Program-made: the position numbers and the translations under genes | Assembly (NCBI RefSeq): GCF_033366695.1 | Contig: NZ_JAOBTQ010000001.1 | Coordinates: 3,968,001 to 4,032,000, forward strand | From: Streptomyces sp. SCL15-4 | Lineage (GTDB): Bacteria; Actinomycetota; Actinomycetes; Streptomycetales; Streptomycetaceae | DNA length: 64,000 nucleotides | Reading direction: 5' to 3' | Notes under the pieces: generated by a model | What the model was told of the DNA's origin: nothing | Database searches by the model: none | Seen by the model: the letters and a program-made list of their open reading frames with translations, nothing else | In this document: positions 41,669 to 49,300 of the stretch, piece after piece | How the letters are laid out: every line of letters begins with the position of its first letter | Numbering within the stretch: position 1 is the stretch's first letter

Positions 41669-44265
<2,597 letters not shown>

Positions 44266-44917: not shown

Positions 44918-45271
44918 TTACGACGGGGGAATCGCGTCAGGCACTGCGGGGGTGGCCGAGATGGTCCTCAGGTCGGACTCCACCGGCTCGGAGAGCCGGT
45001 GGTCCCGCTGGTCCAGGTTCACAAAGATCATTCCGTACCGGATGGCACACCGCACCGGCTGCGGGGCGCCGCGCGGCCTGCGCAGGCACCGGTACGCCCG
45101 CACGTCGCCGTCCTCGTCCCGGGTGACGACGACCGGTTCGCCGAACACGGTCACCATCAGCGAATCACCGCTGTGGGGGATGGCGGTGACCAGGTCGATG
45201 AAGTGCCAGCCGGACCGGTACGCGGTGGCCATCTCGCGACGGAAGGAGCGGTCGTCGGGTGGAGTGGTCAT
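44918..45271 (-). CDS. Degenerate Rieske-like protein coupled to the DSSW peptide
   Basis: A 117-residue protein. The pattern VFGEPVVVTRDEDGDVRAYRC and RYGMIFVNLDQRD follows the fold markers of Rieske oxygenase N-terminal domains. The cluster ligands (CxH and CxxH) are missing: the first site reads CLRRPRGAP and the second loop is cut to a short QPVRC, so a 2Fe-2S centre cannot form. Its ATG (45269-45271) overlaps the TGA of the peptide gene in ATGA, so they are coupled. It ends just before a strong terminator. The Rieske relation is by pattern; function unknown. Confidence 0.6.
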   Translation of the reverse strand: MTTPPDDRSFRREMATAYRSGWHFIDLVTAIPHSGDSLMVTVFGEPVVVTRDEDGDVRAYRCLRRPRGAPQPVRCAIRYGMIFVNLDQRDHRLSEPVESDLRTISATPAVPDAIPPS

Positions 45272-45524
45272 GACCGCACAGCCCAACTGCTGTCCGCCGG
45301 CGGGACCCACGAGCTGTCGCCCGGGACATCGGACGCCACGATCACCCAGCTGCTGTCACCGGCGCCCGCGCAGCAGCGGCCTGTACGCGCCAACTGCTGT
45401 CCTGAGCGACAGCGTCCCCCGCCTCCGCATGACCGGTCAGTGCGCCGAAGGCCAAGGCGGCGGAGAAGGCGGCGACAAGCGCCGAGCGAAGCATTGTCTT
45501 ATGCATAGTCGGCTTCGTCCTCAT
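45268..45524 (-). CDS. Secreted peptide precursor with four DSSW repeats (frame break)
   Basis: The ATG at 45524 has GAGAGG upstream and starts a signal peptide (MLRSALVAAFSAALAFGALT, Ala-rich cleavage region TGHAEAG near residue 34). The first DSSW lies at residues 42-45 (45390-45401). The frame as read stops after 60 residues. The same strand carries three more DSSW motifs at 45346-45357, 45307-45318 and 45283-45294, all in one shifted frame whose TGA forms the ATGA overlap with the next gene. One missing base between 45358 and 45389 would join them into an 85-residue precursor ending WVPPADSSWAVRS. I know no family for it; a signalling or modified peptide is possible. Confidence 0.6.
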
Positions 45525-45637
45525 GTGAAGGTCACCTCTCCCCCGTCCAGATACGACGATGGCCCATTCCGGCACGTCATGGCCACACAAACGATGCATC
45601 ATGTTCCTGCACGTTCAGGACCCTGGGGGGTGGAGAT
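45525..45637. promoter_or_regulatory. Divergent promoter region of peptide and LuxR regulator
   Basis: The 113-base gap separates the DSSW peptide gene (-) from the LuxR-type gene (+). It has an inverted repeat TCCTG-N6-CAGGA at 45605-45620 and the 8-base palindrome GATGCATC just upstream. Either may be an operator for the adjacent regulators; I cannot assign promoter boxes. Confidence 0.4.
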
Positions 45638-46624
45638 TTGGCGATAAACGAGATAAAGCGGACACATCCCCATGGTCTGACCGACCTGTGCGAGGAGGGG
45701 AGCCGGCTCTACGGGAACGCTCTCCGGACGGGCCGCATAGCCCGTGCGGACGTGGAACCCGCGCCCTGCCTGATGGAGTTCGCCCTCCTCCATCCCGACC
45801 CCGACGACCCCAACTGGCTGCGCCCGGTGCCGCCGTCGATCGCTCTGGCCCAGCGGCTGAACCCGATCGAGCAGGAGATCACCCAGCGCCGCCGGGAGTC
45901 CATCGAACTCGCCGACGCTTTCGAGCCGTTCATGAGCATCAGTGCCCAGCCGACGGCGACCACTCACTCGATCACCGTGCTGGAAGGCCTGGACCGGATC
46001 AACGCGGCGCTGGATCTGGCCACCTCCCAGTGCCAGACCGAGATGCTCACGGTCCAGCCGAGCCGGAAACGTCTCGAACACACCCTCGCCAAGGCCCTGG
46101 AGCGCGACCGCCCGCTGATCGAGCGGGGCTGCCGCATCCGCACCCTGTACCAGCACCCCGCCCGCTACAGCCCGGAAACCCTGGCCTACGTGGCCCAGTT
46201 CGCCGACGGCAAGGTCGAATACCGGACGATCGACGAACTGGCCGAGCGGCTGATCATCTGCGACGAGACGGTGGCCTTCATCCCGACCCGGGACGACGGC
46301 GAGGTCGCGCTCGAACTCCGCCATCCCGGACTCGTCCGCTATCTGATCAAGGTCTTCGAGTTCATGTGGGCCCGCGCGGTCCCGCTGAGCGCCGGCGCAC
46401 CCTACGAGACCGCCTCCGACGGCATCACCGAGGTCCAGTACTCCATAGCCAAGCTCCTCGTCGAGGGGCACGTGGACGAGGCCATCGCCCGCCGCCTCGG
46501 CATGAACGTGCGCACCTGCCGCGCGCACATAGCCAAGCTGCTGGCCCACGCCCTCGGCAGCGGCAGCCGCGCCCAGCTCGGCTATCTCATCGCCCAGTCC
46601 GGCATCCTGGACCGGGCCCACTGA
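45638..46624 (+). CDS. LuxR-type regulator with PLD/TrmB-like sensor region, TTG start
   Basis: A 328-residue regulator. The first ~100 residues contain HPHGLTDLCEEGSRLYG, PCLMEFALLHPDPDDPNWL and a coiled segment. Residues ~110-240 resemble the TrmB/phospholipase-D-like effector region (EMLTVQPSRKRLEHTLAKAL, CRIRTLYQHP, VAFIPTRDD). The C-terminal LuxR-type HTH is VQYSIAKLLVEGHVDEAIAR followed by RLGMNVRTCRAHIAKLL. The TTG at 45638 is chosen for the GGGTGGAG just upstream. It diverges from the DSSW peptide gene and has a paralogue at 46640-47684. Confidence 0.82.
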   Translation: MAINEIKRTHPHGLTDLCEEGSRLYGNALRTGRIARADVEPAPCLMEFALLHPDPDDPNWLRPVPPSIALAQRLNPIEQEITQRRRESIELADAFEPFMSISAQPTATTHSITVLEGLDRINAALDLATSQCQTEMLTVQPSRKRLEHTLAKALERDRPLIERGCRIRTLYQHPARYSPETLAYVAQFADGKVEYRTIDELAERLIICDETVAFIPTRDDGEVALELRHPGLVRYLIKVFEFMWARAVPLSAGAPYETASDGITEVQYSIAKLLVEGHVDEAIARRLGMNVRTCRAHIAKLLAHALGSGSRAQLGYLIAQSGILDRAH

Positions 46625-46639
46625 GGCCACCCGCCCGGC

Positions 46640-47684
46640 TCAGCGCGCGGCCGGCGGCTCGGGGTCGGCCCCGGTGAGCGCCCCGGCCGGCCGGGGCGGG
46701 CGGTGGCCGTCCAGTCCCACCTGGGCGATGCGCACGCCGAGCTGGGTCCGGCTGGCCGCGCCGAGGGTCTCCGACAGCCGGGCGATGTGCGCCCGGCAGG
46801 TGCGCACGCTGATGCCCAGCCGCTCGGCGATCACCGCGTCCTGGTGGCCCTCCGCCAGCAGCTCGGCGATGGACTGCTCCCGGTGCGAGATGCCCTCGAT
46901 GCCGGTGTCGGGCAGCGGCGCGGTCAGCGGGATGGCGAGCCGCCAGAGCCGCTCGAAGACCGTCACCAGGTACTCCACCAGCGCCGGATGGCGCAGCTCC
47001 AGCGCCATCGTGCGGTCGGCGTTGGCGGGGATGAAGGCCACCGTGCGGTCGAAGAGGATGAGCCGGTCGATGACCTCGTCCAGGGTGCGGGCCTCCACCG
47101 TGTCGCCCATCAGCTCCAGGTAGTTCAGCAGTCCCTGTCCGTGCCGCGCCACATGCGTGTAGAGGTCGCGCATGCGCACGCCACGGCCGCGCAGCGCCAG
47201 CGCCCGGTGCAGGCCCTCGGTGAGCTCCGCCTCCCGCCGGATGCCGCCGGGCTGCACGGTGAGCACCTCGGTGGTGCACGCCTCGGTCGCCTCGTCCATC
47301 GCCGCCTGGATGCGGGCGAGCCCGTCCAGGACCCGGATGGCGCTGCCCTCGGCCGGTGCCGTCAGGGCGTCGCGCTGCCGGCCCAGGCCCGCGTACCACT
47401 CGAACGCGGCCACCGCCGAGCCCACCCGCCGCTGGCTCGCGCTGACCTCGTCGTAGACCCCGCGCAGCAGCCGGGTCATGACCTCCTGCGGGGAGGTCGG
47501 CACCAGCCAGTCCATGTCGTCGGGATCGGGGTGGAGCAGGGCCAGTTCCGAGCAGACAGGGCACCGGCTCGGCGTCCGAGCGCGGCACCCGTCCCCGGCG
47601 CACGGCACGGGAGTACACGCGATCCCCGGCCTCACACAGCCGGTCGGCACCGTGAGGGTGCTCCTCCGTCCCGCGCCCGGCCAT
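46640..47684 (-). pseudogene. Paralogous LuxR-type regulator, frameshifted
   Basis: A paralogue of the 45638-46624 product, corrected length 347 residues. The N terminus (MAGRGTEEHPHGADRLCEAG) reads from an ATG at 47684. It continues in another frame from SELALLHPDPDDMDWL to the end, with a TrmB-like region (EVLTVQPGGIRREAEL, VRMRDLYTHVARHG, TVAFIPANADRTMALELRHP) and a LuxR HTH (AELLAEGHQDAVIAERLGIS). One extra base near 47547-47551 explains the break; the paralogue shows the joined sequence PCL-x-ELALLHP. It converges with the first regulator, 15 bases apart. Probably functional if the base is an error. Confidence 0.8.
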
Positions 47685-47905
47685 CGCCCATTTCACCCCC
47701 GGTGTGCTGCCACTTCCGCAGCGCAACTATGCGCGGCGCCGACCGGGTCCGCAACACGGCTGCCCGGGCGACGGCGCCCAAGTGGTCCCGCTCTGCCCGG
47801 GTTCGGGTGACGCTCCGGCCTTCACATCGCGACACGACGCCGGTGGTGGCGCGGACCCGGCTCCGGCACGGCGGGCCGGACGCCGGTTACGGGTGCCCGC
47901 GGCGG

Positions 47906-49010
47906 CTACTTCAGCCCGAGCGCCGCGCAGTCCGCCTTGTACTTGGCGGTGCAGATGTCGCCGGCCGTGTAGATGCCGTCCGCGATGACGGTGTCCTTGA
48001 TGGTGCGCTTGGTCAGCGCGGCCACCTGCACCAGCTTGGCCGGGATGTCCTTGGCGGTGGGGCTGTCCACCCGGTCCCGGGTGAGGGCGTCGAACTGGAT
48101 GTCCTTGCCCTGGAGCTTGGTGACGGCGATCTGCGCGGCGGCCTCGGCCTCGTCCGGGTAGGACTTGTAGACGCTCATGTACTGCTCGCCGGCCACGATC
48201 CGCTGCACCGCGTCCAGGTCGGCGTCCTGGCCGGTGACCGGAGGCAGGTCGGTGACGCCCGCCGCCTTCAGGGCCTTGATGACACCGCCCGCCATGCCGT
48301 CGTTGGCGGAGTAGACGCCGGCGATGTTGCCCTTGCCCAGCTCGGCGATCGCCTTGGCCATGTTCGCCTCGGCGTTCTCCGGCTTCCAGTCCGTGGTGTC
48401 GTAGCTCTCGGCGATCGTCACCTTGCCGTTCAGCTCGGAGAGCGCGCCCTCCTTGAACTGCTTGGCGTTGGGGTCGGTGGGCGAGCCGTTCATCATGACG
48501 ACCTTGTCGGAGGTGTCCGCGGCCGAGCCCAGGGCCTCCATCAGGGTCCGGCCCTGCACCTCGCCGACGTTCGTTGTCGAAGGAGACGTAGGCGTCGATC
48601 GGGCCCTCGGCGAGCCGGTCGTAGGCGATGACCGGGATGCCCGCGTCCTTGGCCTTCTTCACCTGGCCGGCGATGGCGTGCGCGTCCACCGCGTCCAGCA
48701 GGATGACGTCGGCCTTGGCGTCGATCAGGTTCTGCATCTGCTCGGCCTGCCGGGCGGCGCTCGCCTCGGCGTTGGCGTACTCGACCTTGCCCTTGTTCCG
48801 GGTGAGTTCGGCGACCTTGCGCTTGATGATGGGGTAGTCGAACTTGTCGTAGCGGGTGTTCGCCTTCTCCGGCAGCAGCAGGCCCACGGTGATGTCGTCA
48901 CCCTTGGTCGGGCTCGCGCTCGCGCCGTCCCCCGTCGCGTTCAGCACGCCGCAGCCGGCGAGCGAGAGAGTCATCGTGGAGGCGGCCACGGACATGGCGA
49001 TACGACGCAT
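47906..49010 (-). pseudogene. Sugar ABC transporter substrate-binding lipoprotein, frameshifted
   Basis: A periplasmic-binding-protein-1-like lipoprotein, corrected length 368 residues. It has a lipobox LSLAGC near residue 18, DITVGLLLPEKANTRYDKFD, ILLDAVDAHAIAGQVKKA and VSFDNE in the first frame, then VQGRTLMEAL, GVYSANDGMAGGVIKALK and VTGQDADLDAVQRIVAGEQ in the second. The pattern resembles XylF/ChvE-type sugar binding. Two bases are missing near 48569-48576 (DNE-VGEVQGR). No permease or ATPase gene is adjacent, so it is an orphan in this window. The ATG at 49010 is chosen; a GTG at 49022 is also in frame. Confidence 0.83.
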
Positions 49011-49300
49011 TCGGGGGCTCACTTCAGGTGTGGTACGGAGGGGTGGTGCGCTACGACCCGGGTGTCTGAAAAGACAACGCGGCGCGCCCACCCGGCGTCA
49101 AGAAAAATCACTTAACGAGTGCGCAACACCACGCTCAGCAGCAACTGTGAAGATCACGCGAAACCCTCTGCAAAGGGCCGTTACCTCCCCTCCACGCCAA
49201 GGAAGTTCCCGGGTGACGAAGATCCGTACAACCAACCCGGTTCACCACGAGTCGTGATCACCGGCGGCCCCAGCCGCACTCGACTCGATCAGAGGAACGA

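Follow-up and report, generated by a model that had tools for sequence, protein, structure and literature searches.

A multi-copy precursor of a probable peptide pheromone and its putative LuxR-type receptor in Streptomyces

A small gene in the 64,000-nucleotide stretch of Streptomyces sp. SCL15-4 DNA analysed here (the window) very probably encodes a multi-copy pheromone precursor, from which an exported, processed and re-imported pentapeptide, DxxWx, would be sensed by LuxR1, the product of the divergent neighbouring gene. For the window strain this predicts DSSW as the ligand, with Met136 and Gly221 in the receptor. The precursor, which is broken by a change of frame in the window, and the gene that it overlaps have the following features:

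45342..45524, minus strand: N-terminal piece of the precursor, with a signal-peptide-like N-terminus and DSSW copy 1, ending early through the frame break (from the open frame and intact orthologues)
45390..45401, minus strand: DSSW copy 1, then R, in the signal-peptide frame
45268..45390, minus strand: C-terminal piece of the precursor in the other frame, with three DSSW (from intact orthologues with the same 4-base overlap)
45346..45357, minus strand: DSSW copy 2, then V, in the second frame
45307..45318, minus strand: DSSW copy 3, then V, in the second frame
45283..45294, minus strand: DSSW copy 4, then A, in the second frame
44918..45271, minus strand: Rieske-like protein that has no cluster ligands and overlaps the stop of the precursor; relatives have a different frame at its C-terminus

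The precursor ATG lies at 45524-45522 on the minus strand, and its frame is open to 45342, reading MRTKPTMHKTMLRSALVAAFSAALAFGALTGHAEAGDAVAQDSSWRVQAAAARAPVTAAG before the stop. The second frame ends in a TGA at 45270-45268 that overlaps the ATG of the Rieske-like gene (45271) as ATGA. The original prediction had described four DSSW blocks in these two frames together with the ATGA overlap, and all were located on the minus strand where it had put them. It had also proposed that the pieces belong to an 85-residue signal-peptide-bearing precursor. This product exists intact, as one uninterrupted frame of 85 residues that holds four DSSW and overlaps the next gene by the same 4 bases, in three near relatives: S. 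achromogenes NRRL B-2120 (L220), strain WELS2 (L221) and S. eurythermus (L222); L041 and L042 duplicate the records of L221 and L222. Orthologues ending after the first DSSW would have spoken against the proposal, and these relatives continue through all four. The four-DSSW arrangement is thus not a matter of chance, given that three relatives have the intact frame and the same overlap. Neither precursor piece had a match in Pfam or NCBIfam up to E 0.1.

Judged by its homologues, the precursor gene is a member of an unnamed family found in most of the Streptomyces sampled. At E <= 1e-10, the Rieske-like gene was matched in 327 of 392 genomes of the genus. The 283 loci examined include the window's own and, for some genomes, several reads; 276 of them yielded a precursor, and these amount to 252 distinct combinations of precursor and regulator with 247 distinct precursors. 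Six of the seven missing loci were lost through the Rieske regular expression and one (L022) had no frame that passed the script; L022 does have a precursor, with two unlike units, DVVW and DRAW. A profile of the precursor matched 303 database proteins, and among the 120 matches listed the named ones were mostly ‘hypothetical protein’, with several ‘5'-nucleotidase’ and a few ‘secreted protein’ or ‘uncharacterized membrane protein’. In a survey of 150 genomes of the family, which covered 17 genera, 30 had the Rieske-like gene, all of them in a single genus; in 24 genomes from outside the genus, a signal-peptide query gave no convincing match (best E 0.007). Within the genus, 65 of the 392 genomes had no Rieske-like match at E <= 1e-10.

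Every recovered precursor has the unit [D/E/N]-x-x-W (747 copies, 1-18 per precursor, 38 majority tetrads), of which positions 1 and 4 were set by the search pattern, with Trp fixed and residue 1 restricted. Conservation of the repeats at the protein level, on which the original prediction depended, was thus found genus-wide across the recovered precursors. Single-copy precursors account for 46 of the 252; in the 206 multi-copy rows, copies are identical in 195 and unlike in 11. Codon differences between copies were 1,078 synonymous and 31 non-synonymous in total, and 981 and 28, respectively, at residues 2-3, which are free in the search pattern and give the fair count. The four residues flanking the unit are 30% (before) and 48% (after) identical. 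On these codon counts, strong purifying selection acts on the tetrad within a precursor: given the synonymous excess and the variable flanks, recent duplication alone is not a sufficient explanation, and it is the tetrad that selection maintains. After residue 26, 731 of 755 Trp residues lie inside a unit. The precursor ends exactly one residue past the last Trp in 92 of 252 cases and at the Trp itself in none, which suggests that the mature unit is the pentapeptide DxxWx.

Most precursors share an N-terminus, [MV]RTKPTM..MLRS followed by a hydrophobic stretch, judged by eye to be a signal peptide. A divergent clade among L173-L217 has another, unrelated N-terminus (MTRMVRAL-like and others) and keeps acidic-x-x-Trp repeats (EPSWE, EPTWE, DPGWH), which suggests that the leader was replaced and the ligand logic retained. 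The largest repeat arrays have 18 units each, in L170 (DTGWT) and L243 (DSTW); two to four are usual.

The candidate receptor and its surroundings occupy the following positions:

45595..45634, no strand assigned: conserved block between the precursor and luxR1, candidate promoter/operator
45638..46624, plus strand: luxR1, divergent regulator and proposed cytoplasmic receptor, start codon uncertain (from coevolution with the tetrad and from fold)
45956..46396, plus strand: LuxR1 residues 107-253, PLD/TrmB-like sensor domain (from profile and fold comparison and covariation)
46043..46045, plus strand: LuxR1 codon 136 (Met), which tracks tetrad residue 2
46298..46300, plus strand: LuxR1 codon 221 (Gly); Gly221 receptors pair with precursors of variable residue 5
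46415..46609, plus strand: LuxR1 residues 260-324, probable LuxR/NarL-type helix-turn-helix (from profile and fold comparison)
46640..47650, minus strand: luxR2, LuxR1 paralogue (about 47% identical), showing no covariation with the tetrad

Adjacency of the two genes was observed: precursors came from 276 of the 283 loci, and a divergent LuxR1 was aligned in 184 rows and found in 74 further. Profile and fold comparisons assign LuxR1 a TrmB/PLD-like sensor domain and a probable LuxR helix-turn-helix (HTH), and the TPR repeats of RRNPP receptors were not found; the structure model is moderate (pLDDT 76.5, pTM 0.49). Of the ten columns covarying best with a given ligand residue, the sensor domain holds eight for residue 2, seven for residue 3 and all ten for residue 5. 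The window's LuxR1 has Met136 and Gly221, matching the need of its DSSW-R/V/V/A copies. In an alignment of 253 upstream regions (window included), the conserved block contains the heptad GAACRTG twice, at 45616 and 45606 on the minus strand with a spacing of 10 bp, and is a plausible operator. The number of LuxR1-type ORFs per locus ranges from one to five across 80 named loci, with three in 45, a count that overlapping frames may inflate. In many loci, L223, L243, L270 and L332 among those noted, a further gene, LuxR1b, lies between luxR1 and luxR2.

According to the covariation of its aligned columns, LuxR1 coevolves with the tetrad residue by residue. Per-column LuxR1 differences were correlated with per-residue tetrad differences, with overall LuxR1 distance removed, in 184 LuxR1 sequences (252 rows less 46 with no LuxR ORF of 290-420 aa and 22 with wrong-frame ORFs). 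Column 136 had a partial correlation of 0.84 with tetrad residue 2 over all pairs (next, column 157 with 0.39) and of 0.98 in pairs under 25% distance (next 0.21). Ser2 goes with Met136 in 95 of 95 cases, Thr2 with Val in 45 of 45 and Pro2 with Leu in 19 of 19; among rarer states, Ile or Val2 goes with Val (15 of 15), Leu2 with Val (7) or Ala (2) and Phe2 with Ala (1). Residue 157 is Asp with Ser2 or Thr2 (140/140) and non-acidic with others. Small ligand side chains would thus meet the large Met and larger ones smaller receptor residues, like a fitted pocket.

The remaining ligand positions gave weaker signals. Tetrad residue 1 correlated with Thr/Ser197 at 0.78 in close pairs, but Ser is present in just 5 of 8 Asn cases; residue 3 correlated with LuxR1 143, 145 and 181 at about 0.3, and residue 5 with LuxR1 221 (0.47) and 149 (0.45). 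Pro5 occurs with Gln221 in 37 of 37 cases, and Gln221 also with Gly5 in three more. Among multi-copy precursors, residue 5 is constant in none of 20 Gly221 systems, in 108 of 124 Arg/Gln221 systems and in neither of two Asp221 systems.

For INDEPENDENCE, a LuxR1 tree was built without residues 75-230 and a second tree from the Rieske gene. By parsimony on the LuxR1 tree, residue 2 changes 30 times, residue 136 25 times and the joint states 30 times, with about 81 changes for shuffled labels; the corresponding figures on the Rieske-gene tree are 53, 45 and 53. Switches would number at least about 25, the true number being tree-dependent. Receptors just 6% apart can switch together with their ligands, as in L159 (DTGWT/Val) and L160 (DSGWT/Met). 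The rule, in a form that lets Val136 pair with Thr, Ile, Leu or Val, held in 73 of 74 precursors outside the set of the 184, which are not an independent sample since many are closely related to the 184 or come from rows left out earlier because LuxR1 frames were mis-called; the exception was DLSW with Ile136. These 74 were drawn from the re-read 68 dropped rows and L300-L327, precursors already seen being skipped; in this re-reading no precursor was found in L300, L304, L305, L310 or L327.

Controls were much weaker than the LuxR1 signal. For residue 2, Rieske-like columns reached at most 0.11 and signal-peptide columns at most 0.15; one Rieske-like column reached 0.50 in close pairs for the sparse tetrad residue 1. 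LuxR2 and LuxR1b were tried and rejected as second receptors: no LuxR2 column exceeded 0.21 for residue 2 (58 sequences), and in LuxR1b (29 sequences) column 136 was patternless and the best other column, outside the sensor, reached 0.52. Small sets reach such values, as LuxR1's own second-best column gave 0.53 in a 37-sequence subset.

In the proposed mechanism, the N-terminus would drive Sec export of the precursor, and proteases would free the pentapeptide DxxWx. An oligopeptide transporter, perhaps a permease such as BldK, would then re-import it, a step that is assumed because LuxR1 is taken to be cytoplasmic. Inside the cell, DxxWx would bind LuxR1 in the PLD-like cleft and alter its activity, and thereby the way in which LuxR1 controls antibiotic production and the shared promoter region. 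The fifth residue would be ignored in DSSW/DSTW species whose receptor has Gly221.

Three other explanations of these data were weighed against this mechanism. That the precursor and luxR1 are exchanged as a cassette, with covariation by hitch-hiking and no physical recognition, appears extremely improbable. The two genes are indeed adjacent and differ between species; however, the Rieske-like gene, which overlaps the precursor's other side, is nearly silent for residue 2, a single LuxR1 column stands far above the next in close pairs, and receptors merely 6% apart switch together with their ligands. It also seems decidedly unlikely that the repeats form a RiPP or antimicrobial peptide precursor, with LuxR1 merely its regulator or immunity sensor. 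The signal-like leader, the repeated cores ending in Trp and the oxygenase-like neighbour would fit such a product, as would a gene for an F420-type PPOX oxidoreductase that lies close by in the window and in L220, but this gene was not seen at the matching place in L270 or L332. The Rieske-like fold is weakly Rieske-oxygenase-like (best E 8e-3), and the cluster ligands CxH..CxxH were found in none of the 223 distinct sequences extracted. In the window, L220, L270 and L332, inspected by eye, the neighbours include clpB, the ligand-less Rieske-like gene, regulators and a sugar-binding protein, and no typical RiPP enzyme was seen among them. A residue-by-residue receptor code is, moreover, expected of a signal and not of an antibiotic. 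The original prediction had offered both a processed signalling peptide and a RiPP-like peptide; receptor coevolution lends independent support to the former, and the latter gained none. Export itself could be doubted, in that LuxR1 might bind tetrads in the cytoplasm, in the intact precursor or its breakdown products, as an internal switch. LuxR1 looks cytoplasmic and lies divergently adjacent to the precursor, and the Rieske-like partner is also without a signal peptide by eye. Such a switch is nonetheless unlikely: the basic-hydrophobic N-terminus is strongly conserved, the last unit lies at a free C-terminus in 92 of 252 cases and the divergence between species resembles that of extracellular pheromones, which are known to diverge in this way.

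The frame break in the window precursor is probably an assembly error and not biology. Within 9 kb around the precursor, comparison with L220, L221 and L222 revealed seven window-specific frame-changing indels in five of seven genes (clpB three; the Rieske-like, precursor, luxR2 and sugar-binding-protein genes one each), and none in the PPOX gene or luxR1. With clpB broken three times, base-calling error is indicated. A real break, through which the window strain lost its pheromone or programmed frameshifting yields the full precursor, is improbable. The break is present in the assembly, and pheromone loss occurs in other systems; against it, the near relatives encode the precursor without a frameshift, and a three-frame scan found a tetrad outside the open frame in the window's own locus (L040) only, the other 251 of 252 combinations having none. 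Error is the simpler cause given the density of indels in the same 9 kb. In the window, clpB (41669-44265, minus strand) and the sugar-ABC substrate-binding-protein gene (47727-49091, minus strand) are split by frame changes that the three near relatives do not have; the assembly seems indel-rich, so other broken genes in the window should be distrusted.

A link to antibiotic production comes from S. coelicolor. A study of insertion mutants places SCO3664 (‘regulator’) among the insertions that raised actinorhodin >50-fold, and gives about three quarters of tested mutants as restored by the wild-type gene, a figure not specific to SCO3664 (PMC6585502). Three published S. coelicolor primers have exact matches in genome G270; the first is exact in three of the 392 genus genomes, and of the other two G270 has both, G142 one and G239 neither. 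Its locus (L332) reads, by eye, dnaK, grpE, dnaJ, hspR, sugar-binding protein, LuxR2 (394 aa), LuxR1b (327 aa), LuxR1 (345 aa, L332 7336-8373), a precursor ending DTIWS, Rieske-like and clpB. In published work, SCO3666 has 394 aa and SCO3665 327 aa (PMC3282765), and clpB is SCO3661 (PMC2687793). Since gene order and sizes match these, LuxR1 should be SCO3664, as placed by gene order in a genome recognised by its primers.

The proposed system would work on the principle of peptide quorum sensing but departs from known cases in the class of its receptor, its ligand motif, the repeated layout of the precursor and its host. In Bacillota, ribosomal peptide pheromones whose receptors are known have been well described. 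RRNPP and arbitrium systems pair a small precursor that is exported with an adjacent cytoplasmic transcription factor, and their signal is a short linear peptide. As in the present case, RRNPP systems of Bacillota (Rap-Phr, Rgg-SHP, PlcR-PapR, ComR-XIP) and the phage arbitrium AimR-AimP are described as coevolved pairs (PMC10075063, PMC8605241). Unlike these, the proposed Streptomyces receptor has a PLD/TrmB-like domain and a probable LuxR HTH in place of TPR repeats, and there are several copies per precursor with an acidic-x-x-Trp core. The yeast alpha-factor precursor has the same layout as the precursors here: its signal peptide precedes several pheromone copies that are nearly identical and separated by variable spacers. 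However, the present system is bacterial, its unit has 4-5 residues, its proposed receptor is a one-component intracellular protein and not a GPCR, and no fixed processing site was noticed. Compared with archaeal TrmB and TrmBL2, LuxR1 adds a probable C-terminal LuxR HTH, and its proposed ligand is a peptide and not a sugar. In LuxR solos and gamma-butyrolactone receptors of actinomycetes, a small signal controls antibiotic production in Streptomyces, as is likewise proposed here, whereas the present signal would be a ribosomal peptide and the sensor fold is different. A further likeness is the BldK-imported bld261 oligopeptide of S. coelicolor, an ABC-imported peptide signal affecting antibiotics and development (PMC11303876). 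The idea that the present peptide might be that signal was considered and dropped. A search of open-access literature (PMC subset) found no description of this Streptomyces peptide family, which weighs little because subscription journals lie mostly outside its scope.

With some reserve, we lean towards the broader proposal that most of Streptomyces has one orthologous pheromone system, with dozens of pherotypes, a legible code between DxxWx and a PLD-like receptor, and a receptor that restrains antibiotics. Streptomyces is the main antibiotic-producing genus, and SCO3664, the presumed LuxR1 of S. coelicolor, has already been reported to restrain actinorhodin strongly; if the proposal is true, cognate synthetic pentapeptides could switch antibiotic production on or off species-selectively. 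For about 250 pairs of precursor and regulator, the family predicts the ligand, the receptor and the residues that set specificity, so that Streptomyces cell-cell signalling becomes directly testable with short synthetic peptides, and the dense ligand-receptor code would be a natural data set on the evolution of peptide specificity.

LuxR1-like paralogues also occur elsewhere in the same genome (G000:C1:507082-508011, 37% identity; 1491117-1491953, 34%; 1991986-1992927, 25%). No ORF of <200 aa with at least two units was seen in the stretches fetched beside four LuxR1-like paralogues of this genome, and these paralogues may sense other peptides.
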